The translations under genes were made by a program, and so were the position numbers. Of a stretch of DNA of 50,437 nt, positions 21,632-50,437 are shown piece by piece. The notes under the pieces are model-generated. The model saw only the letters and a list, made by a program, of their open reading frames with translations. It made no database searches and was not told the origin of the DNA. Within the stretch, counting starts at the first letter, position 1. The number at the start of each line of letters is the position of its first letter. Where the stretch lies: contig RECN01000175.1 of NCBI GenBank assembly GCA_007694005.1, positions 1 to 50,437 of the forward strand, written 5' to 3'. This DNA is from Spirochaetaceae bacterium. GTDB lineage: Bacteria; Spirochaetota; Spirochaetia; DSM-27196; SKKC01.

Positions 21632-22861
21632 ATGAGTAACCCGCTTCAATTATCAATGGTCAACTTCAACAAGGGTGCGTACATCATTGTTGAAGGCAAA
21701 CAGAAGGCGGACAACTTCTACATTCTCCGGCAGGGAAAGATACGCATCAGCAAAGAGGTCGAGGTCGTCGAGGAAGAAGGCGGCAACGTGCTCGGTCCTG
21801 GTGACTTCTTCGGGGTCGTCTCGACTATGAGTAATCATAGTCATATTGAGACCGCCCAGGCCGTTACCGACGTAACGCTCATATCCGTACACCGTGATCA
21901 GTACGGCATGCTGATAGAGAAGAATACTCCGGTCGCAATGAAGATCATCGAAGGTTTTTCGCGTCGTATGCGATATCTCGACGAGCATCTTGCGCGTCTG
22001 ACCCTCAAGGAGCAGGCCGAGGTTGGAACCGAGCACCTCTTCTTCGTTGCAGAGTTCTATGCGAAGCAGAATCAGTACAACCAGGCCTACTACGCTTACT
22101 ATCAGTATCTGAAGTTCTGCCCGGAAGGGAAGAACCGCGATACCGCTTCCGAGCGTCTCCAGAAGATAGAGCCATACGCAAAGACCGTGTATCTTGACGG
22201 TGATGATACGCAGTTCAACCGCGTCTATCCGAAAGACACCATGATCTTTACCGAGAGCATGCCCGGACAGGAGCTCTACATCATTCAGAAAGGCAGCGTA
22301 AAGATCACCAAGGTGGTAAACAACACCGAGGTGCTGCTCGCGGTCCTCAAAGCGGGCGATATTTTTGGTGAGATGAGTCTCATCGAAAACAAACCGCGAA
22401 GCGCATCCGCGGTCGCCTACGAGGACGCCACGCTTCTTGCCGTGAACCGCGAGAACTTCGGCCGCATGGTCAGAAGCCAGCCGCAGATCATCGCCCGCCT
22501 GACAACTCTGCTCGCTGAGCGGATCTGGTTCATATACAAGCAGCTTGCCAACACGCTGCTGACCGACACGACCGGTCGTCTGTGGGACGCGCTCTGGATT
22601 CAGCTTGAAAAAGCCCGGGTGCCAATCAAGTCGGGACAGACACATACCTTTGATTTTGGGCCCAAAGAACTCATCAATATGATCGGTCTTCCTATCAGCG
22701 AAGGGAACGCCGCTATACGCGAGCTGCTCAAGAACAAGGTTGTCAAAGCGGTTGATAACCGCATTTTTGTTTCCGATATCGAAGAAGTCGAGAAACAGGC
22801 CAAATACTACCGAAAAATGCAGCGCATCGCCCGCCAGCGCGAAGAAACACGCAAGCGCTGA
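21632..22861 (+). CDS. Double cyclic-nucleotide-binding-domain regulator
   Basis: The product is 409 residues. Two cNMP-binding (Crp-type) beta-roll domains are visible at about 8-115 (NFYILRQGKIRISK, LGPGDFFGVVSTM) and about 190-305 (ELYIIQKGSVKITK, AGDIFGEMSLIENKPRSASAVAYED). A helical segment of about 65 residues between them (AEFYAKQNQYNQAYYAYYQYLKF, given as a span) looks TPR-like. The C-terminus (GPKELINMIGLPISEGNAAIRELLKNKVVKAVDNRIFVSD) resembles the winged helix of Crp/Fnr regulators. The second domain keeps the GEMSL...RSASA phosphate-binding cassette well; the first has lost it (GVVSTM...IETAQA), so probably only one domain binds nucleotide. The role may be transcriptional. The last 119 bases overlap the convergent RND gene. 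Confidence 0.88.
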   Translation: MSNPLQLSMVNFNKGAYIIVEGKQKADNFYILRQGKIRISKEVEVVEEEGGNVLGPGDFFGVVSTMSNHSHIETAQAVTDVTLISVHRDQYGMLIEKNTPVAMKIIEGFSRRMRYLDEHLARLTLKEQAEVGTEHLFFVAEFYAKQNQYNQAYYAYYQYLKFCPEGKNRDTASERLQKIEPYAKTVYLDGDDTQFNRVYPKDTMIFTESMPGQELYIIQKGSVKITKVVNNTEVLLAVLKAGDIFGEMSLIENKPRSASAVAYEDATLLAVNRENFGRMVRSQPQIIARLTTLLAERIWFIYKQLANTLLTDTTGRLWDALWIQLEKARVPIKSGQTHTFDFGPKELINMIGLPISEGNAAIRELLKNKVVKAVDNRIFVSDIEEVEKQAKYYRKMQRIARQREETRKR

Positions 22862-25493
22862 TCGTACCGACGCAGATTCTCAGTATCAGCCACCGCGTAT
22901 CGTTGTCGCCCGGCAGGAACAGTCCAGCCGGGAGTATCAACATGATCGCCGTGAGGACGGTGGGCTCGGGTCTCCGGACAGAAGACCGGTCATAGCTGTG
23001 CAGGACGGTGGAAACAGCGACGATGATCGCAGGATCAGGCAGAATTTCGAGAAAACCCGATCTCCCGCTGGCAGAAAACAGAAGTGCGGTGCAGGCCATG
23101 ACCACCCCGGCGGCCGAAGAGACCTGCAGACCTTTTTTCCACGATTCATGAACAGCTGCGGATAGCAGGAACACAAGGGCAGCACGCGAAAACAGCGTCG
23201 GAACATGCGATATCGCATCCGCTGTCAGGACCAGGTGATCAGACTGCGTAAGGTCGAGATGGACCTGGTAGCCCGCAGGCAAGCCTGCACCTTCGGCAGC
23301 GGCCTGCAGCGCCCTCCCGGCCGTCCGTGCTGATGCGGAGGTATAGGAAAAACTGAAGTGCGCCGACGGTTCGCGGTCGGCATGAGTGATTCGTTGTGGT
23401 CTGTGTTCGCGTGAAATCGTGAAGACCGATGCGAGATCCGCTCCGTACTCTCCGGCTCCTGCAACCGGGCTCGAATGGAGGATGCTCAGGAGATCTTCCG
23501 GGTCAGAAGCAGGCGAGTGTAACGCGAGTCGTATGTCAGTTTCGCGACCACCGGATATGCGCTTGTGATGCACCGCGGGGGAGAGGAGCGCGCGTACCTG
23601 CAGTGTGGCCTCCCGGAGGTCGACACCCGAACGATGCGCGTGAAACCGTCGCGGTCGCAGGATAAGTCGCTCGCTGTCATCGTGAAAATGCAGAACCGCG
23701 TCGTTGAACTCAGACGCGAGTGCCCGCGCGGCCCTCCGGGCCCCGGCGAAGGTGGGCCCGGTGACGTAGGCCGAAATCCTGTGTCCGGTATCCGGGAGAC
23801 CCGTTGAACGGAGAAAGAGCGACGACCGTCTGTTCTCACCGTTGAAGGACGCGATAGAACGCAGAAGAGCCTCGCGATCGAAATCCGTTCGAAGACCGAT
23901 CGACAGGGAGCCGGATACCGGGCCTGCCTGCGACTGTATAAACCGGAACTCGATGTTTTCTCCAAGCGCGTTTGCAGCTGCCTGCAGTTCGGTGTCGACG
24001 GTCTCCACCGATGCATACGCACCCGCATCGAGATGAACAAATACGACCGGCCCGTCGGCATCGGCCATCCTTGCAGGCAGGGTAGCGAAGACAAGCGCAA
24101 GGGCGATACCCGACAGGACCCGGACGTAGACGCGGGGTGCCGGATTCAACGTCGGCGCTCCCCGCAGCGCGCAGGCTGAAAGATATCGTGTCATCCAGAG
24201 GGCGGGCATCGCGAGCAGCTGCAGACCAATCGTGCAGGACGGCCCATTTTGGTGATACACCAGGGAAAGGCCGGCGAGCAGCCCGGTTACAAACAGTATC
24301 TGTCGACGATCACTCGAGAGCAGGCTGATGTGCGCGATCGAAAGGCTGGTCATGAGCTGCGGGAAGACCATGCGGGGCGGACACGCAGACAGGACCCGGG
24401 TTGCGATGGCAAAGAGGACGCACGCGGCGGTGATGACCGAAACACCTGCGATCAGCGTCTCACGCCGCGATCTGCCGGAAAGAAGGCTGCACAACAGAAA
24501 CCCGAGAAGACCTGCTGCATAGAGAATCGCTTCGGAGCGTCGGAGCGCGCGTTCTTCGTCCCCGGCATCGATGATGACACTCGCCGACAGGTCCACAGTC
24601 GCGTTCCAGCGACGGATCACACCGGTAAGCGCCGCCGACATGGCAGGCAGCGGTTCTGTTCCGTCGGCGACGATGCCCAGCATGAGATGCCTCATACCAT
24701 TCATCCGCACGATGCGATCCGGTCTGCGTTCGTGATACTCTATCGCCGCACCCGGGCCATGCGGCGATGACCTTCCCGGAAGCTGAAAACTCGTGTTCGC
24801 AGCGATCTCCGTCGCGGTGCGGGCGCGGCCGTCGTACACAATGTCGGTCGCGGTGCCTGAGTCACGAAACCGACCGGCCGGAGCGATGTATTCGGCCTGA
24901 CGCAGCCCTCCGGTGAGATCGCGCAGCGAGACCGACTGCGATGCGAGCCTTCCGGCAGAGACCGAAAACACAAGCTCCTGCTGCGAACCGCCGAGTGTAT
25001 CCACACGCGCGACCCCGGCAGTGCGCCCGAGGTGACTGCCAAGACCGTGTTCCAGGACCTGTCTGTCGGGAACCGAACCGTCCGGGGAATGCACCGAGAC
25101 GACGAAGCTGTAATCGGAGCCCGTCTGTGCAAGCGATACCCGTGGACGTTCCAGTCGGCCTCCGACTCTCTCATACACACGGTACGCTTCTTCGCGTACC
25201 TGCGCTGCCACCGAGGCCGGGTCGACCTTCGAGTCGAGGTAGAGGTGCATGGTTATGCTACCGTGTTCGGTTACGCTCCGGCTCTCGCGTATGCCGCTGA
25301 GCTCGCGCAGCATGCGGTCAAACTGAGGCAGCAGGGTCTCAACGAGTATCTCCGCCTGTGTATCGGCTTCTGTGAGCTCCAGGCGTACGACCGTCCCGTC
25401 CGCCGCCACCTCTCTTCCGGGAAGCACCGCGTATGCGATCCACGACATGGCCGTCACGATAAGCAGAAGCACGCGGGCGCGAAACGCTGTCAC
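22743..25493 (-). CDS. Divergent RND-type membrane protein lacking proton-relay residues
   Basis: The product is 916 residues and the last gene of the exporter operon. The overall RND plan is visible: one N-terminal membrane segment, a large periplasmic region (about 40-300), a block of about five or six membrane segments (about 315-475), a second periplasmic region, and a C-terminal membrane block. It is shorter than its neighbour and diverged. The fourth-helix region, which in AcrB-type pumps holds one or two Asp residues, reads MTSLSIAHISLLSSD with no Asp inside the helix. It begins with a GTG that overlaps the preceding RND stop (GTGA), with GGAG upstream. The 3' end overlaps the cNMP-binding gene by 119 bases. 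It may pair with the active pump as a non-pumping subunit; that is inference. Confidence 0.8.
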   Translation of the reverse strand: MTAFRARVLLLIVTAMSWIAYAVLPGREVAADGTVVRLELTEADTQAEILVETLLPQFDRMLRELSGIRESRSVTEHGSITMHLYLDSKVDPASVAAQVREEAYRVYERVGGRLERPRVSLAQTGSDYSFVVSVHSPDGSVPDRQVLEHGLGSHLGRTAGVARVDTLGGSQQELVFSVSAGRLASQSVSLRDLTGGLRQAEYIAPAGRFRDSGTATDIVYDGRARTATEIAANTSFQLPGRSSPHGPGAAIEYHERRPDRIVRMNGMRHLMLGIVADGTEPLPAMSAALTGVIRRWNATVDLSASVIIDAGDEERALRRSEAILYAAGLLGFLLCSLLSGRSRRETLIAGVSVITAACVLFAIATRVLSACPPRMVFPQLMTSLSIAHISLLSSDRRQILFVTGLLAGLSLVYHQNGPSCTIGLQLLAMPALWMTRYLSACALRGAPTLNPAPRVYVRVLSGIALALVFATLPARMADADGPVVFVHLDAGAYASVETVDTELQAAANALGENIEFRFIQSQAGPVSGSLSIGLRTDFDREALLRSIASFNGENRRSSLFLRSTGLPDTGHRISAYVTGPTFAGARRAARALASEFNDAVLHFHDDSERLILRPRRFHAHRSGVDLREATLQVRALLSPAVHHKRISGGRETDIRLALHSPASDPEDLLSILHSSPVAGAGEYGADLASVFTISREHRPQRITHADREPSAHFSFSYTSASARTAGRALQAAAEGAGLPAGYQVHLDLTQSDHLVLTADAISHVPTLFSRAALVFLLSAAVHESWKKGLQVSSAAGVVMACTALLFSASGRSGFLEILPDPAIIVAVSTVLHSYDRSSVRRPEPTVLTAIMLILPAGLFLPGDNDTRWLILRICVGTISACVFLRAGGRCAAFFGSIWPVSRLLRYRKQKCGYQPL

Positions 25494-28414
25494 CGTGGCC
25501 GCTCCCGCACCGACCAGCGATACAGGGCGGGTATCATGACGAGTGTCGCGATCGTACCCGAAAGCACACCTCCGATAATTACCGTCGCGGCGTTGCTCTG
25601 AACCGACCTGAGCCCCGGATCAACAGCCAGGGGGAACAGGGCAATGATCGTGGTGATTCCGGTCATGAGTACCGGTCGAATCCGACGCGCCGTTCCGGTC
25701 TGCAGGGTCTCAGTGACACCAGCTCCGGTTTTCCGAAGGGCATCGTAGGTTTCGATGAGTATGATGCCCGGATTGACCGTCAGCCCGGTCAGGACCAGTA
25801 GCCCGACGGCTGACTCGAGCGTCAGCGTTCGCCCCGCGATATTCAGCGCGAGCAGGGCACCCGCCCAGGAAAACGGCAGCATCAGAAGAATGGCGCAGGC
25901 AGGGAAGATCGCGTCGAAATGCAGGATGAGCACGAGGAACAATACCGCGACCGAGATCGCGAACACCGCCGACAGACGCTGCATGTCGCGATCCGGAAGC
26001 ACCGGGTCCGGCACACGTGGTCCATGCCCGGCCTGCATGATTACTGCGTCGAGCTGATCGATACGCAGACTCGTCGCGGGTGCTTCTTCGTGCTCGATGT
26101 CTGCGAGGATGTGCAGGGGCACGAGCTCACCAGCGGCGCCGACGATCTGAAGATCCGAAAGGGCGGTGAGCTGCGGAGCGCCGCCGTAGAGGAGGCGAAC
26201 ATCCCGTTCGTTTCCCGGCCTGCCTATGCGTCCGGCGATGAGACCCGTGGTTCCCGCGTAGATCAGCCGCGTCAGATCGACGCTGCTCAGTCCGTAGCGG
26301 TGCAGAACGCTCATGCGGGGACGCAGGTACACGCTTTCGACGCGAACAGCGGGAACGATCGCTGCCGCGAGCCCGGTTTCCGGAACGCCGGGGTTGTTTT
26401 CGACGAGAACACGGAGGGCAGCCGCGTGCGCCTCGGCGAAGCTCTGAGCACGCACCGGTTCGCCCCGGCCGAGTTCACCGCGCACGATATGAGCAAGCGG
26501 CGACGGGGGTATGAGCACGCGTGCGGGGATCGCTGCCTGCTCAAGGATGTCGCTGAGTTCCTTCGCGACCACAAACGAAGACCGGCCCGGTTGCAGGCGT
26601 ACCGTCGAGCGTATCTCGCCCGGCTCATGATCGATGGAGACGAGAAACATGGGATCATCGATCTCTCCTCCGCTTGTGGAGTTCACGTCGAGGACGGCAT
26701 CGTGAGCTGTAAGAACGTTCTCTATCACCCGGGTCCGCTCCTGCAGCACGCGGAACGAGCTGTTGGCACCGATCCCGGTGTGTACGGTGATGACTCCGGA
26801 GTCCAGTGATTCGGTCGGTGCAAAAGGAAGCGAGAGCGCTCCTGAGAGGCTCAGGGTTATGCACGCGAAAACGAATGACGCAGGTAGAAGCGATACACCG
26901 CCGGTGCGAACCGCCATGTCTTCGATCCATCGTACCGCAGAGGGGCTGTGCCGGGAGCTGGACTTCAGAGCGGTCCATATGGTCGGGACGACGATAATCG
27001 AGACGGCGTAGCTCGCGATGAGCGTGATCACGACCGAGATCACGAGGTCACGATACACGTCTCCGAGAACACCCGGCAGGCCGACGAGCGGCAGGAACAC
27101 GACGGCGGTTGTTGCCGTGCCCGAGAGTCCGGCGAAGGCGACCTCCGTGACTGCGGCTGCAGGCTGCTCGGGGTTCAGGTCGAGACTGTCGGCGACGACG
27201 ATGCTGCTGTCTACAATCATGCCGACGGCTACCGCGAGGCCACTGAGACTCATGAGGTTGATGCCCAGGCCCAACTGCTGCATGGTCAGAATTGCGATCG
27301 CCATGGTGATCGGAATCGAACAGAATACGGCAAACGCCGGACCCGAACTCCGGACAAAAAGCTTGATGACGCAAAACGCGCAGAAACTGCCGAGAACTGC
27401 CGCGATCAGAAGGTCGCGTAAAGCGGTGCGCAGGGCCTCGGCACCGTCGAAAGCGAGGACGAGATGCACATCCCGGTTATCGCGACGGTTGTAGTCCGTG
27501 AGAAAGGCTCTCACCCGGTCTGCAACCTGTGCGGGGCTACGGCCCGGCCGGGCGTACACCGCGATTCCGACCGCCTCGCGACCGAGATAGCTGAACAGTA
27601 CAGTGCGCTGTGCTGTCCCCGCCGCGACATCGGCGACGTCACCGAGGACAAGCGGATAGGCCTCAAGGCCGCCGGTAAGCACAAGCTGCCCGAGTGCTCC
27701 TGAGCTGTCTACAGACGCATCGGTAAGCACCCGCATTTCACGCTCCGCGGTCTGAATCGAACCCGCCGAGTACTCGAAGACCGAAGACTGCAGCGTTTTC
27801 CGTATCATCCCGAAGGCAGTTCCGGTCGCAGCAAGCCGCGCCGGGTCTGCCCGCACGTGAATTTCCTCTCGGTCACCGCCACGAACGACGATCGTTCCTG
27901 TACCGTCGATCTGCTGAAGGGCAGATCTGATCCCCCTATCGGCGCGATCGCGCGCTGCGGCAAGGTCGACGGAACGGGGAATGACGGCAATGACTGCCGA
28001 GGGCTCCCGGAATACGGGTATCGAGAGGACAGAAGGTCGTTCGACTCCGTCGGGCAAAGCCCTGTAGGCGCTGTCGACCGACTGTCGCACATCCGCTAAG
28101 GCGTGTTCCCTGACCGTTCCGGGGTGAAACCGCACCTCAACCGCGGAGACACCGCTGCGGCTGGTGCTGATCAGGGACGATACCGAGCTCACGCCTGAAA
28201 GCGCGCGCTCGACGGGAATCGTGAGAAGATCGATGATCTCCGCGGCCGGCAGACCCGGGAACTCGGTGCGGACGACGAAGGCCGGGACATCGACCTCCGG
28301 CATAAAGCTCACCGGCATGTCCTGTATGCTCAGTGCGGCGAGGATGAGAATCAGGGCTGTTGTGGACAGGACCGCTACCGGATGCGACAGCGTCCATGAT
28401 ATCAGGCGATTCAC
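25490..28414 (-). CDS. RND-family efflux transporter (AcrB-like)
   Basis: The product is about 974 residues. It matches the HAE1/AcrB family: the N-terminus has HPVAVLSTTALILILAALS and MPVSFMPEVDVP, then FPGLPAAEIIDLLTIPVERALSGV. The fourth-helix proton-relay motif is GMIVDSSIVVADSL, with D402 kept and Ser where AcrB has a second Asp. The second-half motif is GLTVNPGIILIETYDAL, then RIRPVLMTGITTIIALFPLA. It would be the proton-driven inner-membrane pump. I prefer GTG 28414 over the in-frame GTG at 28453: the former overlaps the previous stop as GTGA and has CGGAGG nine bases upstream. It follows two Ig-like protein genes and precedes a second RND gene with a four-base overlap. The substrate is unknown. 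Confidence 0.93.
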   Translation of the reverse strand: MNRLISWTLSHPVAVLSTTALILILAALSIQDMPVSFMPEVDVPAFVVRTEFPGLPAAEIIDLLTIPVERALSGVSSVSSLISTSRSGVSAVEVRFHPGTVREHALADVRQSVDSAYRALPDGVERPSVLSIPVFREPSAVIAVIPRSVDLAAARDRADRGIRSALQQIDGTGTIVVRGGDREEIHVRADPARLAATGTAFGMIRKTLQSSVFEYSAGSIQTAEREMRVLTDASVDSSGALGQLVLTGGLEAYPLVLGDVADVAAGTAQRTVLFSYLGREAVGIAVYARPGRSPAQVADRVRAFLTDYNRRDNRDVHLVLAFDGAEALRTALRDLLIAAVLGSFCAFCVIKLFVRSSGPAFAVFCSIPITMAIAILTMQQLGLGINLMSLSGLAVAVGMIVDSSIVVADSLDLNPEQPAAAVTEVAFAGLSGTATTAVVFLPLVGLPGVLGDVYRDLVISVVITLIASYAVSIIVVPTIWTALKSSSRHSPSAVRWIEDMAVRTGGVSLLPASFVFACITLSLSGALSLPFAPTESLDSGVITVHTGIGANSSFRVLQERTRVIENVLTAHDAVLDVNSTSGGEIDDPMFLVSIDHEPGEIRSTVRLQPGRSSFVVAKELSDILEQAAIPARVLIPPSPLAHIVRGELGRGEPVRAQSFAEAHAAALRVLVENNPGVPETGLAAAIVPAVRVESVYLRPRMSVLHRYGLSSVDLTRLIYAGTTGLIAGRIGRPGNERDVRLLYGGAPQLTALSDLQIVGAAGELVPLHILADIEHEEAPATSLRIDQLDAVIMQAGHGPRVPDPVLPDRDMQRLSAVFAISVAVLFLVLILHFDAIFPACAILLMLPFSWAGALLALNIAGRTLTLESAVGLLVLTGLTVNPGIILIETYDALRKTGAGVTETLQTGTARRIRPVLMTGITTIIALFPLAVDPGLRSVQSNAATVIIGGVLSGTIATLVMIPALYRWSVRERPR

Positions 28415-29862
28415 GGACTCGGGCCTCCGATCTGATTGAGGTCTATCCTCCACTCACGTTCGAGCAGGTTCCCGAGTGAATCACTCAGGCCGTCGCGCAG
28501 CTGCATCGATACGACGCCGAATCGTCCTGCTTCATCGATGATTTCAATACCCATGCGTACGCGGGTAGACCCGGGAGACAGTGCTTCGGCCGACGCTGAT
28601 ACGAGACGAAACCGGGCGGAATTCGACCAGGTGAGGATGCGAAAATGCCGAAAGACCTCGAGTGCAGAGACAGTCGCGTTTTCGGCGTGATCCAGGTATA
28701 TGTGCAGAGTTCCCTGCCTCTCTTCGGTGTGAGGGAAGAAGGCAGAAAGGTCGAGAAGTCCCCCGTCGGAGAGTGCTGTGCCTTCGAATTGTATCGCCGC
28801 AACCGACGGATCCCGGTAGTCGCGGGCCGCCGGTCGAAGCTTCGCGAAGCTGCTGTGCCCGGTGGTACGACCGTGGTGATCGCGAAGACTCTCTGCAAGC
28901 TCGAGCAGGTAGTCTGTTGAGGGATCAAGGGAAGAGTGCACGCGCACACCGACTTCCGTGACGTAGATTCCGGGACTTAGATCGAGATACAGAGGCACCG
29001 TCGGGCTGATCGTCAGAACACGGGATAGATCGGCTGCGTACACGGGAACGGCGAATCTCAGCGAGAATACGGTGTCGCGGTCGAAATCTTCGAGACCTGG
29101 TACAGGAGCAGGGTCACCGGAGTCGACAGACATGGCCGCGCAGCCGGAAACGTCGGCCGGGAAGAGCACGCACAGGGATATCACCTGTGGAGGTGCCTCT
29201 GCGTGACTGTCGGGCAGGACATACGTGAAGCGCTCGCCGAGGAGCCGGCCGTCAGCGGCAGGCATGCCGCGACCGATGGAGACGCTCACCTCTCTGTCGG
29301 ACCGGGGAGCAGACAGCAGGACGATCAAGGCGGTCACTCCCGAATCGGCGACCTCAATACGGTAGCGCTGCTCAGGGTGAACCGACAGGTGTTCGTAGAG
29401 CGCATGTGGACTGATCGGGTGTGAGAAGGAAATGAGGATCTCACGATCACCGGCAGGCGCCGCCGATATCTCGAAAGCTTCAAGCGTACGATCGGGTCCG
29501 AACTCGTGGATATAGGGTCGTTCAAGCGCGTTCCCGTGTACGTCCTCGGCGCGCGTTGAGATTGTCAGCGTATACCGTTCATCGGGATCGAGCGGGTGAT
29601 CGGGGAGAAAGCGTATCGTTGTTCCGGCTCGTGAGATCCGTCCGTACACCGCCCTGTTTCGCTGTCTCAGGAACAGTGCCGCCTCCACGCGGGGCAGATC
29701 AGGTATTGCCGAGAACTCTATCAACAGGCCTTGCGGGTCGGCGACGTCTACAGCGAGAACCTGAAGCGGTCTCATGGAAAAAAAACGGCACCCGACGGAA
29801 ATCACGACCAGGAGCAGAACTACCATGGAACGTCGTACATGGGTGCTCTGCGCTTTACTCAT
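28411..29862 (-). CDS. Ig-like (Big_5/SbsA-type) lipoprotein of the RND operon, copy 2
   Basis: The product is about 483 residues from ATG 29862, with GGAGA eight bases upstream. The signal (MVVLLLVVISVG) ends in Cys25 and looks like a relaxed spirochaetal lipobox. The mature protein carries repeated Ig-like modules of the Big_5 type: LLIEFSAIPDLPRVEAAL, IRFLPDHPLDPDERYTLTISTRAEDVHGNAL, VFSLRFAVPVYAADLSRVLTI, STDYLLELAESLRDHHGR. It is probably a periplasmic-facing lipoprotein. Its start overlaps the previous gene by eight bases and its stop overlaps the RND start as GTGA, so it is part of the coupled operon. Such proteins are not standard parts of RND tripartite pumps. The exact role is unknown. 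Confidence 0.82.
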   Translation of the reverse strand: MSKAQSTHVRRSMVVLLLVVISVGCRFFSMRPLQVLAVDVADPQGLLIEFSAIPDLPRVEAALFLRQRNRAVYGRISRAGTTIRFLPDHPLDPDERYTLTISTRAEDVHGNALERPYIHEFGPDRTLEAFEISAAPAGDREILISFSHPISPHALYEHLSVHPEQRYRIEVADSGVTALIVLLSAPRSDREVSVSIGRGMPAADGRLLGERFTYVLPDSHAEAPPQVISLCVLFPADVSGCAAMSVDSGDPAPVPGLEDFDRDTVFSLRFAVPVYAADLSRVLTISPTVPLYLDLSPGIYVTEVGVRVHSSLDPSTDYLLELAESLRDHHGRTTGHSSFAKLRPAARDYRDPSVAAIQFEGTALSDGGLLDLSAFFPHTEERQGTLHIYLDHAENATVSALEVFRHFRILTWSNSARFRLVSASAEALSPGSTRVRMGIEIIDEAGRFGVVSMQLRDGLSDSLGNLLEREWRIDLNQIGGPSP

Positions 29863-31225
29863 GTGAGTCTCCGTGTACAAGGATGAGCTCGTGCACTTCC
29901 CCGCGCGCTTGATACGGGATCGAAAGCGCATAGATGGCGGGGTCTGCCGCGTACTCCGAAGGCAGGAGCCCGGACCAGGCTGTCGTCAGCTCCCGTCCGT
30001 CGCTGGACCAGAGGAACTGGTTTAGTACGACCGGAAGTCCTCCTTCGGGCAGGAGACGCTGTATGCGCGTCTGGTCGAGCAGGGCCTGCCGGTCTGAAGC
30101 TCCCTCGACAGGCCGGTCGTAGGAACTGACTGCGAAGAGCAGAAAGTCGGGCCCTTCGGGCTCTATCGCTATCGCATCGGCAGCCTGAATATCTGTCTGC
30201 GTCGAGCTTCCACCGGACCACAGGATGGTCACCCCGGCAAGGCGGGCCTGGTCTTCCTGCGTGCGAAAGACGATCTCGTGTGCCCGGGTGAGAATGTTTC
30301 CGCTCCGGGATGCGAGTCCGGCGGAGACAGTCACGGTGTAGTCGGTATCACTGTCCCAGTGCTGCACGGGGCGCACTACGATCTCTTTGTCGGACCGCTG
30401 CTCTGTTTCAGTCGGTCGATGAGGCCTGAGCCTCACCGCGTGGTGCAGCTCACGGTGGTCTACCGCCTCGGAGAACTCGAGAACGAGCGCGTCGCGTCCC
30501 TGCGGTACAGGGACGGCAGCGGGTGGGTTTTCGCCGGCAATCTCAAAGTGATGGCTCTGCAGCTCGAGCGGAATTGCGCCGCTGTCGAAGCGGAAGAAAA
30601 GACGGAGCTCGTCGCCGTGTGCGGGATCGGGTACGCGAAGCTCGTAGCTGCGAGCGGACTGCCAGCCAGCATCGGGGCGTATGCTGAGCCGGGTATCATC
30701 GCTATCCCACTCGAATACGAGCGCCTCGGCAGGCAGGACGGATATCCCCGCTTCCAGACTGTCCCTGTCCATCGGTCTGCTGAAGCGCAGCTCAATCGGA
30801 CTCCGCGCATCGTCGAGGACACCGTCGGCAGGCTCGCTCGAGACAAGCTGAGTCGCCGTTTCGTCTGATTCATAGAACAGATGATGTACAAACGAAACCT
30901 CGTGTACGCGTCCCCGTTCGTCAGGAATCATTCCTTCGAGCCGAAGCTGATGTACGACTCCGGGCCTCGGGTCGTGTGCCGGTCGTATCGTGAGGTGTGC
31001 GTCCGTCCATTCGAAGCGCTGGGTCACCGTCCGTGAGGCGGTGCTGACCTGTAGCAGCTGCTCGACCTCGTGCCGGTCGACAGCGCGCGAGAACCGCAAT
31101 GTGACTCCGGATTCGGGACGCACCACGCTGTACCGCTTCGCAGGCTCGACATCGATCTGCAGAACCGCAAAGTCGACCAGCGCGCAGTGTGTGATTACTG
31201 CGCCGAAGAGGACGCTGAAACACAT
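29855..31225 (-). CDS. Ig-like (Big_5/SbsA-type) exported protein of the RND operon, copy 1
   Basis: The product is about 456 residues from ATG 31225; the frame is open to an ATG at 31300 that would overlap the adaptor gene by 29 bases and has a purine-rich GGGAGAGAGAG upstream, so the start is uncertain. From 31225 the N-terminus (CFSVLFGAVITHCALVDFAVLQ) reads as a signal, possibly with a lipobox at ITHC. At least three Ig-like Big_5 modules follow: SGVTLRFSRAVDRHEVEQLLQVS, RSPIELRFSRPMDRDSLEAGISV (written as spans) and ALVLEFSEAVDHRELHHAVRL, each with the F-S-x-[AP]-[VM]-D signature. The C-terminal 130 residues differ and contain LLFAVSSYDRPVEGAS. It lies between the adaptor and the second Ig-like gene. 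Function unknown. Confidence 0.78.
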   Translation of the reverse strand: MCFSVLFGAVITHCALVDFAVLQIDVEPAKRYSVVRPESGVTLRFSRAVDRHEVEQLLQVSTASRTVTQRFEWTDAHLTIRPAHDPRPGVVHQLRLEGMIPDERGRVHEVSFVHHLFYESDETATQLVSSEPADGVLDDARSPIELRFSRPMDRDSLEAGISVLPAEALVFEWDSDDTRLSIRPDAGWQSARSYELRVPDPAHGDELRLFFRFDSGAIPLELQSHHFEIAGENPPAAVPVPQGRDALVLEFSEAVDHRELHHAVRLRPHRPTETEQRSDKEIVVRPVQHWDSDTDYTVTVSAGLASRSGNILTRAHEIVFRTQEDQARLAGVTILWSGGSSTQTDIQAADAIAIEPEGPDFLLFAVSSYDRPVEGASDRQALLDQTRIQRLLPEGGLPVVLNQFLWSSDGRELTTAWSGLLPSEYAADPAIYALSIPYQARGEVHELILVHGDSHE

Positions 31226-31271
31226 GCGCGTGATGCTCGAACGACCGAAACAGGCGCGGCAGCGCTGATAA

Positions 31272-32612
31272 TTATTCGGTTCGAGGTGGGAACAATGCAT
31301 GAACTCTCTCTCCCTGCTGAAGCTGGGCTGTGTGTCGGGTCAGAATGACGGTATCCTCGTCAATCCCTGAGATCACTTCGACGGTGTCACCGTATCCCTG
31401 TGCTGCTATGCGTATTTCCCGGGAAAACACGTGGTCTGAGGCCAGCACCTGTACGAAGGCCGTGCCTGTATCAGTACGCAGTATCGCCGAGGATGGAATC
31501 CTCATGACCATTTCGGCGCTGCCTGTAGGAATGACGGCTTCCGCGTACATGCCGGGTCTGAGCGCAGGGTCAGCCTCGTTCAGACGCAGCCGCACGGGAA
31601 CCGCGCCCGAACGGGGGTCGGCTACGACGCCGATACGGAAGACCTCAGCGGGTCGTGGCGTCTCAGACACCGCGGGCAGGCTGATACGGGCCGGGTTCCC
31701 AACCGCGACGCGGTAGAGACTCGACTCGTGTACCCGCACCTGTACGTCCGGGGTTTCGCTGTCGACAAGGCTGCACAGAAGCGTCCCTGCATCTACGCGT
31801 TCGCCTTCCGCGACGTGCAGGGCTGCGACGCGGCCAGCGAAGGCGGCGCGGACGTCGAGAGACGATCGAAGATCGGCAACCGCCTCGCGCTCGGCCTCCG
31901 CAACGCGCAGGCGTGCTATGGCAGCAGAAAGCTCCGCCTCGCCGGTCTGCAGGTTGCTGCTCACGACCTCCTGCCGCTGTCGTGCCCGCGCTTCCGGCGC
32001 AGGCCTCAGCGGCAACTCGACCCCGAGCTCGGCGGCGAGGACCGTTTCATCGTTCGATGCGATGAGGACCTGCAGTTCGGCCCGGGATTCGGCGTGTCTG
32101 ACCGAAACGAGTTCTTCGGGCGAAACCGCTCCTGACTCGACACGAAGCTCCGTCTGCCTGCTCCGCTCGCGAGCGCGTTCGAACTCGATGCGCGCTAAGG
32201 ACGTCGCGTGGGCGAGACCTTCGAGGCGCGCGAGTCGCTGCAGTACGTGCCGTCTCGACGACTCAAGGCGTGCCGCAGCAAGCTCGACCGCCTGTTCGGA
32301 CGCGGCAAGCTCTCCGTCTACCTGACGCTGACGTGCGGCGAGCTGCGCGTTCGCTATGCGCAGGATGATCTGACCCTCTTCGACCTCATCGCCTTCGGCA
32401 AGGTACACGGTAGAAACGGATCCCGCCGCGGCGGCGTTGATGCGCATCTCCCGGCGCGGTACGAGGGCCCCGAAGACCTGGACTTCATCATCGCGTTCCT
32501 GCATCTGCACGCGCATGACCCGGACCGTCCGGACCTCCGCCGGAGGTGCTTCGGGCGACGGGGCAGTGCACGCGCTCATAGCGGCAAGAAGGACCGCGGC
32601 TGGATACTTCAT
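31272..32612 (-). CDS. RND periplasmic adaptor (HlyD/MFP family) lipoprotein
   Basis: The product is 446 residues. The signal ends in a lipobox (LLAAMSAC, Cys15), so it is a lipoprotein. The membrane-fusion-protein plan is present: a lipoyl-type half motif (MRINAAAAGSVSTVYLAEGDEVEEGQIILRI), an alpha-helical hairpin rich in Glu/Arg/Ala (about 90-235), the second lipoyl half (VRAAFAGRVAALHVAEGERVDAGTLLCSLVD, as a span), then a beta-barrel and membrane-proximal domain (LRPGMYAEAVIPTG, MRIPSSAILRT). It would link the inner-membrane RND pump to the TolC-like channel. ATG 32612 overlaps the TolC gene stop as ATGA. Confidence 0.93.
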   Translation of the reverse strand: MKYPAAVLLAAMSACTAPSPEAPPAEVRTVRVMRVQMQERDDEVQVFGALVPRREMRINAAAAGSVSTVYLAEGDEVEEGQIILRIANAQLAARQRQVDGELAASEQAVELAAARLESSRRHVLQRLARLEGLAHATSLARIEFERARERSRQTELRVESGAVSPEELVSVRHAESRAELQVLIASNDETVLAAELGVELPLRPAPEARARQRQEVVSSNLQTGEAELSAAIARLRVAEAEREAVADLRSSLDVRAAFAGRVAALHVAEGERVDAGTLLCSLVDSETPDVQVRVHESSLYRVAVGNPARISLPAVSETPRPAEVFRIGVVADPRSGAVPVRLRLNEADPALRPGMYAEAVIPTGSAEMVMRIPSSAILRTDTGTAFVQVLASDHVFSREIRIAAQGYGDTVEVISGIDEDTVILTRHTAQLQQGERVHALFPPRTE

Positions 32613-34012
32613 GGCTGCGACAGACCCGTGCGCTGCTGCAGCCTCTGGTGCAGCAGGATGAGCGCGAAGGAGCTTTCAAGGGCATTGAGTCGGGCCTCGG
32701 CGAGTTCCCGCTCGGCGTCGAGAATGGCCGTCCCCCGGCGGTGACCGGCTGCTACATCGGCCCTGATCCGTACGAGCGCGAGTTCGGCGAGTCGGACACC
32801 CTCTTCATCAGTCTCGAGGGCGGACCTCAGGTACGCATGATCACGGACGGTCTGTCTGATCCACGCTTCGGTCTGCTGCCGCCCGGTGGTATACGCGAAC
32901 CCGGCGCGCTCGGCGTTCATGCGCCGACGGATTGCGTCGTTCCGTGACTCGTAGCGTGTCCATGCACCCGTTTCCAGACCGACCGAGCGTGCCGTGTATC
33001 GGCCGCTGTCGGCACTGAAGACACCACCGAAGGAAAGACTTCCTGTGTTTACCCCCGGCCAGGAGAAACGGACGCCGAGGCTGACTTCGGGTGATGCGAG
33101 CGGGAGCGGTGTCCCGCGCATGGAAACACCCAAGGTGGACTGTATGACAGGAACGCTCACGGAGGGCAGAAAATCAAGCGCCGCGCGGGCCGTCTCCACC
33201 TGTACCCAGAGCTGCTGCAGGGCCGGGTCTTCACGAAGCGCGTGTTCCGTGAGGATGGAAACATCGTTCCGTAGCCTCCGGGGAAGCGAAAGCCCCCCGG
33301 TAACCGACGGTACACTGAGCACCGTGTCGTTTCCGAGCCCCAGTATCTGCCTCAGTTCGGTGTGCAGATCATCGACACGCGCCTGACGCTGTTGCGATTC
33401 GAGCGCTGTCCGCGCCGCCGAGAGCTGTGTGCGTTGCATCTCATACGCGGTCAGCAGTCCAAGCTCGTGGTCGCGGGCGAGACTTTCGAGTTCCCTGTCG
33501 ACCCGCTGCGTGTGCTGTCCGGCGATCAGTGCAGCGTGTGTTGCGAACTCGACCGCAGCGAGCAGCTCCTGCACGACAGTGCGCAAGCCGGCTTCGTAGT
33601 CACGCTGAAGTGCCTGCGCCATCGCGAGTTCAGCAACAGCCGTTCGCCGGGAGAAGTCCCTCATTCCTCCGTCGTAGATCGAATACGCGAGTCCAGCCTG
33701 CAGCTGAACGGCCTGCGTGTCGGCGGAGTGCACGATCCGGTCCCGACTGCTTGCGACCGTTGTCGTGAGCGAGGGCAGCCGCATCCGGTTCAGGCGTGCA
33801 AGCCCGCTCCGCGCGAGCTCGAGTTCGACCTGCCGGTGGTCGTGTGTAATGTCATGAGCCAGAGCCAGACGGAATGCATCGTCCACGCTCGAAATACTCA
33901 CAACGTCCGGAGCTTCGTCGGCGAACAGTACAACCGCCGTACCCGGCAGAAGCAGAACGAGAACTGTGAACAGCTTTGCAAGGAACTGAACGCAGACGTC
34001 GGATGAATGCAT
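32609..34012 (-). CDS. TolC-like outer-membrane efflux protein
   Basis: The product is about 467 residues, first gene of the six-gene exporter operon. A signal peptide spans about residues 1-31 (AKLFTVLVLLLPGTAVVLFA). Two structural repeats of the outer-membrane efflux family are visible: SSVDDAFRLALAHDITHDHRQVELELARS with LTTTVASSRD and LQAGLAYSIYDGGMRDFSRR in the first half, then ILTEHALREDPALQQLWVQVETARAALDFLPSVSVPV and VRFSWPGVN in the second (quoted as spans). It would form the outer-membrane exit duct. ATG 34012 is preferred over 34036 because GGAGGT lies five bases upstream. It is divergent from the giant protein gene; the 109-base space between them must hold both promoters, but I could not pick either with confidence. 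Confidence 0.9.
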   Translation of the reverse strand: MHSSDVCVQFLAKLFTVLVLLLPGTAVVLFADEAPDVVSISSVDDAFRLALAHDITHDHRQVELELARSGLARLNRMRLPSLTTTVASSRDRIVHSADTQAVQLQAGLAYSIYDGGMRDFSRRTAVAELAMAQALQRDYEAGLRTVVQELLAAVEFATHAALIAGQHTQRVDRELESLARDHELGLLTAYEMQRTQLSAARTALESQQRQARVDDLHTELRQILGLGNDTVLSVPSVTGGLSLPRRLRNDVSILTEHALREDPALQQLWVQVETARAALDFLPSVSVPVIQSTLGVSMRGTPLPLASPEVSLGVRFSWPGVNTGSLSFGGVFSADSGRYTARSVGLETGAWTRYESRNDAIRRRMNAERAGFAYTTGRQQTEAWIRQTVRDHAYLRSALETDEEGVRLAELALVRIRADVAAGHRRGTAILDAERELAEARLNALESSFALILLHQRLQQRTGLSQP

Positions 34013-34124
34013 GGCTACCTCCACCCCTCTGTACACCGCTCATACGCAGTTTGATTGTGAAAATCGGAAATCTCCTGCAATCGATTTGATGCTTTGTCTG
34101 GTATCAGAAGACGGAGGAAGAATG

Positions 34125-37100
34125 ATGAACACAAAGATCAGACAGCGATGGAGCATTCTCTGCGGATCAGCACTCATGCTGCCGGTCTGCATAGTCACTG
34201 CTGTGTACGGTCAGGCCTACGCTCCCTTCGATCTGTTTGACGACTACATGCTGCGTGCCGGGCGTTCCCGGACGAGCGAGGAGTGGTGGATCTACGCCGA
34301 GTCGGCTCGCGAGTACGCCGCTGATAGTGCTCACGTCGGCGCCGAGCGCAACCCTGATCTTTTGCAGGAGGTCGATCGCCATCTGCAGCGTGAGTTTGAC
34401 CGCTGGCTGACGACACGGACTGCACCATCGCAGGGGCACGAGGACGTGGAAATGCTCCTGCGGGCTGTGCGTGACGCATCGACCGCTGATCCGACGGTGC
34501 AGTCGCATATATGGGAAGATCTGCGCGAGCGGGCTCCCGGTCTTGATCACCTTATCGAGCTTGAAACACAGCGTCTGCTCTCGCGCTCGACCTACGATCA
34601 TCAGAGCCTGCGTCGACTGACCGAACGTTCCTCACCCCTCGAGATCGTCTCGTATCTCGAGGCGCCGTGGCTTCAGACTCACGCGCCGCCTGATGTACGG
34701 GACGCAGCTTTGACCGCGCGCATAGGGGAGATGAACTCCCGAGACCGGACCTATGGCGAGAGCCTGTCGCGCGCGCAGGATCTCTGGCAGGAAACGGAGG
34801 CCCACCTGCTGTCGGAACGCCTGCATTGGGAGCAGGCGATGCAGGCTGCTTACGCCGAGGATACACGCCACTGGGAGAACGCCTTCCGGCAGCTCGCCGA
34901 AGAGCAACGCGTCTGGCAGGAGGCTATCGATGAACTCATTCACGCCGAAGCGGGACGCCACCGGCAGGAGCTCTCGGCGCTCGACCTGCAGCGAAGCGGT
35001 GAGGCCGAGGCTTACGACCGTGCCGTAGCCGCACGCCGCAGCGCAGCTGACGCACAGCGCTCGGTAGCCTTCGAGCTCTACAGGGCGAGCAGGGACGCGG
35101 AGTATACCGCGCTGGCGGCGCTGGAGATCTGGCAGGCGGTCGATCATCCGGAAGCGGTGGCCGAGCGACAATTCTGGCAGGCCGAGGCAGAGCGGCACGC
35201 CGCAGTCGCCGACAGCCTCGCTGAGACGCTTGAAACGCTCGTCGAGGAGTACGCCGGGGGAGTCTTCTACGGTTCGCTCGGACGAGAGATTACCGAGGCC
35301 GAACAGCGGATCCGGCGAACCGAAGCGGAAGTAGACGTGTGGGAGGCGGTGTTGCAGTACGCAAACGACACGACCGCGGGTCGTGAGTCAGCCCCGGATA
35401 CCACCGATGAGCTTCAAAGGGCAAGCTCGGAACACGAGGCGGCTGTGCAGCAACTGCTTGATCTCACCGCGACCTTCGACGCCCTCTCTGGAGAGTTGCA
35501 GGCACGGCGGAGCGAACAGCAGGTCTACGAGCAGGCCATAGCCGGGATCGATCGTGAGATCGCTGCTCTTAACGCCTCGCAGCGTCACCTGCTCGAGCTT
35601 TTGAACGCGCCGTCGGTGGTCTTTCTCGAGCACCTCGTCGCAGAATCCCGCGAGCTTTGGGAAGACCGTACCGGCGGACCCGAAGGCATTCTCGATGCGG
35701 ACGACATCAGCGCTCTGACCCGACAGCTCATCGGTTCGGAGCAGCAGGCGCAGCAGCGGATCTACCGCGCAGAACGGCACAACGCCGTGGATGAACAGCG
35801 TGCGACGGTCCTGCACGGTCTCTCCCTGGAAACCGTCGGCAACCTCACGCGCGATCTGCGTACCGATGAACGCGAACGCGCCCTCGACACCATCGTTTCC
35901 GAAACAGCTGTAGACTCGCCCTTCCACCGCATGGCACTCGTCGCAAAAGCGTATCCTGAAGCGGCAGTGGTCCTGCAGGAAATGCTCGCAGCTGCGATGC
36001 TCGAAATAGAACGCTTTGAGGACCTTCTTGCCTCCGGCCCTACCGATGAGCGGGAGCAAGCCTCCGGGATTGAGGCGAGGCGAGAGCGCTTCGCGGAGCT
36101 CGAAGTGGACCGCATACGCGCGCAGGTCGCGCTCGAACGCGATACGCTCGCGTATCTGCACCGCGAGGCGGCGGAGGTGCCGGCTGACGAGGCAGGCGAG
36201 GCGCCGGGCGACGAGGCGGGGCAAGTGCCGGCCCCCGAGGCAGCGGCCCCCGAGGTGCCAGCCCCCGAGACCGGCGACGTTCCGGCCTCGGTCCTCCTGC
36301 TCGCGCCGTGGTACGCCGAACCCGCGGCCTACGAGCTTGAAGACCTGACGGACCTACTTCAGATAATCGATGCCCTCATCGCGGACGAAGAGCTTAACGG
36401 CCTTGCGCTGCACGCCGAGCTTATGCAGCGCGCGGTGACGAATCCTGCTCTGAGTCAGATCATGACCGGTGGAGGTGCATTCGAGGTGGCGCCTGGCGTC
36501 TCCCTGTCGCATGAACACGCCGCCGGTCTTGTCGAGGGGTGGCGGGAAGCGCACGCAGAGATCTCTGCGTCTGCTGCAGCCATGAGGTATGCGTATCTCG
36601 AGACCTATGTCCTGACCGCCGACATCATCGACGCCGCGAGAGATCTCGCAGATCTGCTCCCGACCGCCGAAGAAGCTCTCAGTTTTCTCGAGTCCGGGCT
36701 GCAGCACGAACTTGGGATCATGATCGATGTACCGCCGAGCCTGCAGGAGCAGTACCTCGAAACGGTCAGCGCACTGCTCGCCGTCGGCATGCCCTCAGAC
36801 CATCCGGAGGAGACGCTTCGCATCTACCGTCGCGAGCACGCGGTGTTGCACTCCCTGCTCGCAGATCTGCACGCGGATCCGACGCCGCCTTCGTCCGATG
36901 AGCCCGCCGACGTCCTCTTTGCCGAGGCCGAAGACATACTCGCTGAAGCGGCGTCCGTGTACGGGCAGCTCGTGAATCTTCGATCTGAATATCACCACCT
37001 GTACTCAGAACTCATCGCCCGTGAGCTGCAGCTTGCGGAGGCTCGCAGCCACAGTCCTGAAAGCCTTGCAGAGGCCGTACACGATCTGAACAATCAGCTC

Positions 37101-40100
37101 GAAGCGGCCCGACGCGAGCGAAGTCTGTTGACCTCGGCCTGGGAAGAAGCCGTCGATGAGCTCTCGGATGATTTTTCCGGTCTCGCTGCCATGCAACACG
37201 AGCTGCACGCCGCGCGGGAAGCCGAAGAGCTCGCGCGGCAGGAACTCAACAGGGCACAGAGCGTCGATCTGTACGCGAGGAGTTTCTCGCTGTCCACCTC
37301 CGACGTGCAGGAGCGTCACGAGCAAAGCCTTCGTGCGCGGGATAGCGCGCGTGAGCTGCTTCTTTTGCTCGAAGACATGGCAGGGCGCGATCCCGCGCAG
37401 ACACGGTACGAGGAAGCCCTTGAGGCGTACCGGGAGTCTCTTGCCGCACAACTGAAGGCCGGATATCTGCTCCGCGAGCTCGAACTGGCAACGGCCGACG
37501 TGCACGCGGAGATACACGATCTTGAACACGCTATGATAGAAGCTCGCGGAATGGTCTTCGAACACGAAGACGAAGCCGCGCATCACCAGTGGATGCTCTC
37601 ATTTTCGGAGCTGCTGCAGGATGGGGGGATTGAACTTCTGCATCGCTTCAGTCTGGCCCGCTACGCCGAGCAGTACGAGCGATACGAGGCTCAGGGATCA
37701 TCAACTGTGTTTCGAACACCAGAATCGATCGTCTCTCCTGCGCTGTACGCTGCGCTGACACAGGGCGGCGCGTTTCGCAGTCCCGTTGATCTCGGATCAT
37801 ACATGCTCGAAGAAGCCCGTCTCGCCCGGGACCTGATTCGAAGCAATCCTGAAGAAGAGCGGCGGTTTCAGGAGTATCGTGCGTTTCAGGAAGCGGGGGC
37901 GTTCAGGCGATCGCACGAACTCGCGGAAGTCGAATATCTTTCGGCTCCGGCGCACATGGTCGCACACGCGATCCGTCGAACCGATGAGCTCGCGCGACGA
38001 AACAGGAGGCAGAGCGGAACGCTCGCTGCGATTGGAATGAGTTACTATGTTGCCGGACTCGCGTCCTTCTTTTCACCCCCGCTCATGGCCACCCTCATGC
38101 TGCGCTCGACCCTCGAACTCGGGCTCGCCGCTGCTGCCGGCCGCGCGGCGGTGGCGTATGAGGAACTGAATCACGATCTGTCGCAGCTTAGCTACGCAGA
38201 CGACAGGCGCCACGCGGTATCCCTGCTTGAGACAGAGTTTCGTGCCTACGTCTCGCAGGCGACGCGCCTGGCAGGACACGAGGCCGAACTCGAGATGATC
38301 CTCGGGGGCGGCATCGAAGACCTCGGGCGGGTGGTCGAGACGGTTCTTGACTCCGACAACCCCGCAACGGCTATGGCGGTTTCTCTACAGGGCGCCGGTC
38401 TTCGTTACACCGGGACCGACGCGTACGGCCCTGCCGGGAGCCTTCTTACCTCGATCGCCGGACTTACCGCCTTTATCCGGGCCGAAACGGATGAGGCGCT
38501 GGTGAATCTCGATACCCTTGTCGGCGACGTGGAAGACGAACGGCAGACAGATCGCGCCGCCTGGCACCTCGCGCGCGATACATTTCTCGACGGCTGCGGC
38601 GAAGACGACTGCGACTACGTCGAGCTGTTAGAACGGGCGGAAGCGCTGTTTCTTTCCCGGACCCCGGACCCGGCATCGCACAGCATCAGGCTTCAGCAAA
38701 CGCTCCTGGACGCGTACGCACGGAGTCCGGTGACCCGTGCTCCCCATCAGCAGGTGCACCTGCACGAGCGCGCTGCCGCTGTTCAGGAGTACGGCAGACG
38801 AGTCTTCGATCGACGCGACGATCACGATCGCGATGTATTTCGTGACGCATCAGAAGGTCTGCGGGAGGCGCTTGTTTCGGCAGCCGCTGCGCGCGCAGAG
38901 CAGCTGCAGTACATAGTAGAACGCGGCCGGGACGAGTGGCGCAGCGCGACCGAGCAGCTCACCGCTTCCTACGAAGGCTGGCTCCGTGATCGGGCCGAAA
39001 TCTACGAGACGCGGTCGCGGCAGCACGCTGCCCGTCACGCGCTCATGCTCGAACTGCACAAAGCCTGGGCGCAGGACGCGGGAAGTCACCGCGCACCGGA
39101 CCGGCTCGCGGTTCAGTATCTCGCCGACCTGATCCTGCCGGAGGTACGCGTGGGGTTTGGTATGGATACGCCCGACCTTGATCGATCAGTGCGCGAGCTT
39201 TCACGCAGTGATCTGCTTTCAGATCTGCTGCAGGCGGCCGAAGAAGGCCTGCGTCTGCAGTCGCGGGCGGCAGCATCGAATATGCCTCTGCCCTCACCAC
39301 CAGCCGGTGGATTCGCGTCTGAGCTTGAAATCATGAGGCACGTACAGCAGACTCGGGCGATCGACAGCGAAGAGGCGGCGCACCGTCTCAGCATGGCGCA
39401 CGCAGGGAGCGTTCTGCACGAGCTGCAGGGTTTGCGCGATAGCGCTGTAGAGACTGTCGCTTCCGCGAACGCCTCGATCGCCGATTCCGTCCATCGGACC
39501 TTCACGCAGGCGGGGTTCAGACGCGACGGAAACGCCTTTCTGCGCGATACCCTCACCGGTAGCACCATCAATACCAGCGTACGCGTATCGCATCGGCTGC
39601 GCGGGTACGAAGCCTTCACCGATTATCGCTTTGAGCCTGCTTCGGGGCTGTCGCTCGCGGGTCTTGCGCGTTCCACAAGCCGAACGATCGCACGTCGTGT
39701 CGATGAAGCCCGGATTGCAATAGCTGCAGAGCTTGAGCGGGTGTTCGGGACCGATACCGAGCGGATGCAGGGCGGTACCACCGACCCGGATGCCGTTATG
39801 GAGATCAGGCGGTCGCTTGAGAGAGGCTGGCTCGCCGAGATTCTCGATTACGGTGAGTCGCATGAAACCCTGACGAGAAGCGGCTCCGCGATCGTCATGC
39901 CGGGTGCCTTCGGTGCACACGTCGGTTACGCTCCCGAGCTTTATCCACAGGTCGATCCGGCTCGCAGCTGGCAGGATAATATCGCCTTCGCAGGGAGCGG
40001 GGAGCTGCAGTATCTCTACGGGCCCTTTCTCTACTATCAGGCCCTGCAGGCGAGGGGATACGCGGAGTTGCAGCAGGGTTTCCACTCCGTCAGACTCTGG

Positions 40101-42961: not shown

Positions 42962-42986
42962 GTCTGAACGGCAGGTGTCAGCTCAA
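42958..42986. terminator. Weak hairpin between convergent msrB and GH57 genes
   Basis: TTGAG-T-CTGA and TCAG-CTCAA form a nine-pair stem with one bulge and a ten-base loop. It spans the end of both convergent genes (stops at 42961 and 42978). There is no T-run on either side, so a terminator role for both strands is only possible. Confidence 0.3.
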
Positions 42987-45419: not shown

Positions 45420-45420
45420 C

Positions 45421-47268: not shown

Positions 47269-47297
47269 AGTAACTCCGCCTCCCTTCGGGCTCCGTT

Positions 47298-50200: not shown

Positions 50201-50437
50201 CGCGAAACTTACTGTCCGGTTTTGCACGGCGTGCCCGGTCGAACCAGGGATGCTGATTGGAGGTGTGGTTAATGACGAGCTCGGTAATGACCTGCATGTC
50301 ACGAGCGTGGGCTTCTTTCAGGAAGCGCTTGAAATCCTGCAGCGTTCCGTAGGCAGGATGAACCTGGGTGTAATCGCTTATATCGTAGCCGTCGTCGAAC
50401 CATGCCCTGATCATTGAATCGGGCATGCGCGGCCGCG
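47298..50437 (-). CDS. treS: Trehalose synthase-maltokinase fusion (5' end outside the window)
   Basis: At least 1,042 residues are visible; the gene runs off the window, and the N-terminal strand and first helix of the GH13 barrel are missing, so the ATG at 50426 is probably internal. The TreS part covers about the first 530 residues: [50 protein letters not shown] with nucleophile D152, [12 protein letters not shown] with E194, and [13 protein letters not shown] with D260. A maltokinase follows: [31 protein letters not shown], and the kinase motif HGDYHLGQ at 899-906 with [11 protein letters not shown]. TreS interconverts maltose and trehalose; the kinase makes maltose 1-phosphate, the substrate of GlgE. 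No glgE is in view. It is the first visible gene of the operon with treZ and the GH57 gene. Confidence 0.93.

Follow-up and report, generated by a model that had tools for sequence, protein, structure and literature searches.

We analysed a window of 50,437 nucleotides from a Spirochaetaceae bacterium (the whole of the stretch studied, positions 1 to 50,437 of contig RECN01000175.1, assembly GCA_007694005.1), which carries six minus-strand genes for an exporter of the resistance-nodulation-division (RND) type and, divergent from them, the gene of a giant protein. The genome of this probably uncultured spirochaete amounts to 3.9 Mb in 204 contigs. A sequence-only reading of the same DNA had described six genes in the order TolC-like, adaptor, two Ig-like proteins, RND, RND, and we find all six with the domains it assigned to them. 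The genes and features of the locus are as follows.

32609 to 34012, minus strand: TolC-like outer-membrane factor of 467 amino acids, with its ATG at 34012 (Pfam OEP, 6.4e-11)
31272 to 32612, minus strand: periplasmic adaptor, or membrane fusion protein (MFP), with a leader ending in Cys (Pfam HlyD_D23/HlyD_3 and NCBIfam RND_mfp above cut-off)
29855 to 31300, minus strand: IgA, an Ig-like lipoprotein with a leader and four beta-sandwich domains (Big_5, 1e-22)
28411 to 29862, minus strand: IgB, the second Ig-like lipoprotein (Big_5, 1.9e-12)
25490 to 28414, minus strand: RND1, pump subunit with the Asp of transmembrane helix 4 (TM4), with a GTG start at 28414 (ACR_tran, 6.2e-124)
22743 to 25493, minus strand: RND2, a shorter pump subunit of 916 amino acids without the TM4 Asp (ACR_tran, 1.5e-23)
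34122 to 42224, plus strand: toxin-like giant of about 2,700 amino acids, predicted to be exported, the probable substrate or partner of the exporter (leader-like N-terminus; homologues near the exporter)
41600 to 42224, plus strand: presumed C-terminal tip of the giant, with an approximate border (alignment with relatives)
42236 to 42961, plus strand: MsrB-domain protein with a hydrophobic leader, in the position of a partner gene 12 bases past the giant (SelR, 4e-39)

Outer-membrane factor, adaptor and RND permease are thus encoded together, as in a tripartite RND exporter. Overlapping junctions had also been claimed, and all five do overlap if our chosen starts are right: by 4 bases at TolC/MFP, 29 at MFP/IgA (which presupposes an IgA start at 31300), 8 at IgA/IgB, and 4 at both IgB/RND1 and RND1/RND2, where the IgB start is taken as the ATG at 29862 instead of position 29931 of the mechanical open reading frame (ORF). 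The giant begins with the ATG at 34122, after GGAGGAAG, and is read away from the operon; a scan for promoters and terminators near 34000 found none.

The six genes form a conserved unit in the spirochaete phylum. Profile searches of 392 genomes of the phylum found the adaptor family in 86, and 84 of these also carry the Ig protein. The sequence-only reading had named one outcome as speaking against it, namely pump genes still together in relatives whose Ig genes are missing or dispersed, and this is not what we see. The IgA profile gave strong matches (best E at most 1e-15) in 94 genomes and some match at 1e-3 in 187 of the 392. Ten genomes have strong IgA without the adaptor and two (here G125 and G268; G numbers denote genomes and L numbers loci) the adaptor without strong IgA, absences that are soft, as these searches score few candidates per genome after the first look. 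The genome lists used for co-occurrence and neighbourhood were transcribed by hand from the profile-search results. Within the class, adaptor and IgA lie at most 8 kb apart in all 39 exporter genomes, the window genome counted, and among the 46 genomes searched in the window's order tandem Ig genes stand beside the pump in several families.

The same reading had proposed a search for the six-gene order in other spirochaetes, and the order does recur: 32 of 40 loci, spread over many families, show exactly TolC-MFP-IgA-IgB-RND1-RND2, a fraction that gauges order and not presence since the loci were picked via the IgA gene. Within these canonical loci the ORF is split for RND1 in L142 and for TolC in L144, and the RND2 gene of L137 is cut off. 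Six of the remaining eight are rearranged with the Ig pair still beside the pump (L155, L156, L160, L165, L169, L175), one has no RND genes (L147) and one runs into contig ends (L163). Of the 80 best named loci that a general RND pattern retrieved, 77 have no Ig neighbours, and the three that do are members of the six-gene system. Two further proteins with lipobox-like leaders often precede TolC in relatives (L139, L152, L157 and others), a tetratricopeptide-repeat protein of about 220 residues and, in many loci of the class, a protein of about 165 residues with no Pfam match above cut-off; neither lies upstream of TolC in the window.

The system also appears on a contig titled Planctomycetota (L190), which carries both exporter and giant. 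The rpoB of its assembly (MohnsGC08_bin181) pairs with that of a planctomycete, both full length; this pairing is all that we use of the rpoB tree, in which minus-strand rows were read in wrong frames. Among 198 further genomes of that group none has a full-length IgA match, and 73 have partial, weaker Ig matches (best 79 bits). L190 is either a spirochaete contig in a planctomycete bin, that is, contamination, or the product of a transfer.

The sequence-only reading was right to take the six genes as a conserved unit, and it fell short in treating them as an odd pump alone, overlooking both the giant next door and the loss of the TM4 Asp from RND2. The window giant has no match in Pfam or in NCBIfam (the latter up to E 0.5), which places it outside the named giant families there. 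Homologues beside the exporter measure 2,656-2,927 residues in six further genomes of the window's order; giants in the class span 2,649-3,918 residues, G056 outside the class has one of 2,410, and the giant of G351 is divided between two frames. A profile of the giant core matches in 72 of the 392 genomes. Adaptor and core occur together in 57, the adaptor only in 29, the core only in 15 and neither in 291, so that the core is found in 57 of 86 genomes with the adaptor versus 15 of 306 without it; Fisher tests on this table are uncorrected for relatedness and their values merely indicative. Within the class 37 of 39 exporter genomes, again counting the window genome, have a giant, and of the 35 genomes with a full-length giant (a frame of at least 1,900 amino acids scoring at least 100 bits with the core profile) 34 have the adaptor, the exception, G061, being 85% complete.

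Moreover, the two are neighbours. Giant and IgA could be placed in 39 genomes, at most 30 kb apart in 21, far apart on one contig in 2 and on different contigs in 16; hence 21 of the 23 pairs that share a contig lie within 30 kb, and in two of the different-contig pairs (G415 at L138, G396 at L151) the start of a giant is visible at the exporter. The giant lies either directly upstream of the operon and divergent from it, or right behind RND2. The 77 general RND loci that lack Ig served as a control (median length 17.4 kb, with 12 shorter than 10 kb); no giant accompanies any of them, and on this ground we reject the idea of an ordinary pump whose neighbours have nothing to do with it. At L147 with L298 in genome G213 (G213:C1:86000-113000) a giant comes immediately after TolC-MFP-IgA-IgB and the 27 kb in view contain no RND gene, and a complete six-gene copy stands on another contig (L148); it is therefore the periplasmic parts, besides the pump, that are tied to the giant. 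The giant family is linked to the exporter, and it is the divergent giant at 34122-42224 that turns the odd pump into a probable dedicated exporter.

What kind of protein would be exported? The giants of G156 and G190 share 88% identity across about 2,640 residues, after which their last 335 and 269 residues cannot be aligned; those of G372 and G395 are 91% identical and then diverge over the last 96 and 80. Behind some giants stand cassettes related to them: G238b matches residues 2733-3347 of its giant at 79% identity and G373orph residues 3080-3362 of its own at 76%, and G372orph and G395orph, which have different ends, share 73% identity with one another and are more distant from the giants. 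No standalone cassette related to the giant was seen in the window. A same-strand ORF follows 2-117 bases past 20 of 21 giants, with a hydrophobic leader on most as judged by eye. In a test of tips and partners over 20 giants (190 pairs), from which G028 was left out for want of a same-strand ORF in its remaining 791 bases, there were 13 related tip pairs and 11 related partner pairs, and 10 pairs were related in both. The coupled pairs comprise six among G012, G014, G015 and G016 together with window/G021, all in the window's order, and three that span families or genera (G156/G213, G156/G409 and G238/G351). A conserved body with an exchangeable tip, standalone cassettes and a partner that covaries with the tip are the features by which polymorphic toxins are recognised, and the giants look like polymorphic-toxin-like proteins, with putative toxicity and putative immunity.

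Twelve of the 16 partners scanned carry a known domain (WG repeats in four, F5/8C-like domains in three, and FGE-sulfatase, RCC1, SH3, ankyrin (G395) and leucine-rich repeats in one each), and four carry none. The tip of G028 is an M23 peptidase (1.4e-9), the only Pfam match above cut-off among the tips scanned; the M23 metal-site motifs HxGxD and HxH recur, uncalled by Pfam, in the tips of G351 and G238, the tip of G341 has a CHAP match below cut-off, and Cys, His and Asn are common to four tips of the window's order. A crude rule finds a Sec-type-looking leader on 17 of 20 giants. In the window tip Cys 41667, His 41979 and Asn 42060 are candidate catalytic residues, picked by eye only. The last 399 residues of the window giant are 93% identical in G021, its only close relative, which thus has the same tip and, behind its giant, also an MsrB-domain gene; the last 249 residues are related to those of G221. 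Structure prediction gave no fold for the window tip (mean pLDDT, the predicted local distance difference test score, 34.8), and of the PDB sequence searches made with tips two had no match and one had seven weak matches, the best with E 0.035.

The two pump subunits differ in the TM4 Asp of the proton relay, which corresponds to AcrB D407. Of the RND1 sequences 46 of 47 retain it (in the remaining one, L142, the ORF is split), and of the RND2 sequences 38 of 48. The RND2 proteins without it, from six families, are those of the window, G021, G027, G028, L140, L141, L146, L160, L168 and L176; in some of them degeneration leaves the column uncertain, and none shows the motif. All 80 general RND proteins have this Asp, which we rejected as a control since the search pattern itself contains it. 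AcrB also has a Lys in TM10, where 45 of 47 RND1 sequences have Asn; Asn stands there in 79 of 80 general RND proteins as well, so this column does not discriminate. Because the loss of Asp is repeated and confined to RND2, the data fit a mixed RND1/RND2 pump to which RND1 would supply the power.

As for the Ig-like proteins, they had been called lipoproteins, and the sequences of the window's order bear this out, the Cys that closes the leader being invariant in 14 of 14 IgA and 11 of 11 IgB. Applied to a broader set, a crude rule picks out a lipobox-like Cys in 36 of 40 IgA, 31 of 40 IgB and 30 of 36 adaptors, some of the misses reflecting a wrong upstream start or a Cys passed over by the rule; the adaptors of L170, L171, L172 and L174 seemingly have none. 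A model of IgA built from four sequences (mean pLDDT 73.5, predicted template modelling score 0.34) suggests, with strands read by ourselves, a leader helix followed by four beta-sandwich domains in a row whose relative placement is uncertain. Single domains of this model match Ig domains of L,D-transpeptidases (LdtMt), the S-layer protein SbsC, CopC and TssM with Z of 10-13 and 2.1-2.8 A over 86-102 residues, and the IgA sequence profile also matches L,D-transpeptidases and TssM. The fold common to these domains reveals no function. The suggestion that the Ig proteins may grip a protein substrate fits with the linked giant.

How might such a machine work? We infer that the giant would enter the periplasm by its Sec-type leader and that IgA and IgB, as four-domain lipoproteins, would hold it ready for export there. 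A heteromeric RND1/RND2 pump, powered by RND1, would then take it up, and it would leave through the duct formed by adaptor and TolC-like protein. What emerges would be a long conserved body whose C-terminal tip can be exchanged and in some members resembles a peptidoglycan hydrolase. The covarying partner encoded downstream would probably shield the producer's own periplasm. RND pumps load from the periplasm; since the giant and most partners have leaders and some tips appear directed at the wall, export in two steps seems the simplest account. We therefore lean, with some reserve, towards the six genes being a dedicated two-step exporter of a divergent polymorphic-toxin-like giant. The broader proposal, of a new and phylum-wide secretion system in which an RND-energised conduit ending in TolC, with two Ig lipoproteins, secretes giant polymorphic toxins from the periplasm, we hold to be evenly poised. 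No description of the six-gene operon was found in the literature searched, which included few subscription papers and no preprints and so gives weak evidence for novelty.

Tripartite RND pumps of the MdtABC-TolC type contain two different RND subunits, and the window operon resembles them in its outer-membrane factor, adaptor and two adjacent RND genes, which make a mixed pump likely; it differs in its two added Ig lipoproteins, the repeated loss of the TM4 Asp from RND2 and the linked giant. Type I secretion combines an ABC exporter with an adaptor and TolC and likewise offers an adaptor-TolC conduit for very large proteins. Here, however, RND replaces ABC (no ABC family is found among the six operon products), and the Sec-type leader on the presumed substrate implies two steps. 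Dispatched, the animal RND protein that releases Hedgehog, also works on a protein substrate, but with neither outer membrane nor conduit. An outer-membrane transporter of the kind that serves two-partner secretion or contact-dependent inhibition (type V secretion, T5SS) was not among the 20 window proteins scanned, which are not all of its ORFs. With the polymorphic toxin systems of Zhang et al. 2012 (PMC3482391), in the portion of that work considered here, the giants share a conserved body, an exchangeable C-terminal tip, a downstream partner and standalone cassettes, and the ankyrin partner Imm-ank described there may be compared with the ankyrin domain in the partner of G395. The export routes given in that portion are the type II, V, VI and VII secretion systems (T2SS, T5SS, T6SS, T7SS), TcdB/TcaC, the Photorhabdus virulence cassettes (PVC), PrsW and phage (MuF); in contrast to our case, the string 'rnd' occurs 0 times in its first 300,000 characters.

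Several observations weigh against export of a toxin by this pump. The giant is not detectable in 29 of the 86 adaptor genomes, 27 of them outside the class; it may be too divergent for detection, or the pump may have another job there. Of eight exporter flanks fetched without a prior giant match, four show one (G190, G373, G341, G252) and in four (G413, G389, G308, G358) none was seen. A wide distance separates giant from exporter in G389 (2.9 Mb) and G335 (296 kb), and G061 has a giant with no exporter detected. Short giant forms exist without the exporter: nine genomes of the class have giant-like sequence without strong IgA, in frames of at most 1,360 residues only. In the regions examined of G009, G044, G244 and G302 there is no exporter gene, and in the first three of these (L316-L321) long ORFs alternate with shorter ones in rows on one strand, some of them matching the giant core or C-terminal profile, several weakly. 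Seven of the ten coupled tip/partner pairs come from the window's own order, the window tip matches no recognised family or fold by Pfam, PDB sequence search or model, and most of the other tips have no Pfam match. MsrB would be odd as an immunity gene, and G221, whose tip is related to the window's, has a partner that is not. Finally, no pump of the RND/TolC kind is known to export a protein of 300 kDa.

The adaptor genomes without a giant would fit an operon that encoded a pump for small molecules or lipids with accessory Ig lipoproteins, the giant leaving the cell otherwise and being linked to it through competition or a role at the cell surface. TolC, adaptor and RND do match families that function in efflux. 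The adaptor is, however, present in nearly every genome with a full-length giant, and L147 retains TolC-MFP-IgA-IgB beside a giant with no RND genes, so that we find this explanation doubtful, if the weightiest of the alternatives. Self-directed cell-wall enzymes or surface proteins, with the partners as cofactors, would fit the peptidoglycan-hydrolase-like look of some tips (CHAP below cut-off); against this the abrupt tip exchange in near-identical giants, the downstream cassettes and the matched partners are hallmarks of polymorphic toxins, and we think it unlikely that the giants are no toxins. Less likely again is that the RND complex, in place of exporting the giant, energises or assembles it at the envelope, as in positioning a surface fibre or the anchor of one. 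The great length of the giants and their Sec-type-looking leaders favour it and a degenerate RND2 would be compatible with a scaffold, but a TolC-like duct is present in every one of the 32 canonical loci. That the six-gene set is a chance local arrangement is scarcely credible, and we reject it, since 32 of the 40 loci, drawn from many families, share the order and no point in its favour was found.

The window holds other genes as well. A protein with cyclic-nucleotide-binding domains (Pfam cNMP_binding, 21632-22861) is convergent with RND2 and overlaps its end. Positions 16557-18206 encode a protein with a TIG domain and a transglutaminase core, and 42978-50426 holds three genes with, in turn, GH57/DUF3536, alpha-amylase/CBM48, and alpha-amylase plus maltokinase-cap domains.

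Should our preferred reading, a dedicated exporter of toxin-like giants, be true, RND pumps, known as exporters of drugs and metals, would join the protein-secreting machines, and spirochaetes would gain a dedicated weapon system. The proton-relay Asp, lost repeatedly from just one member of the RND pair, offers a natural experiment on the division of labour in mixed pumps. More generally, a widespread operon would acquire a function that can be tested, and tested directly in species already in culture.

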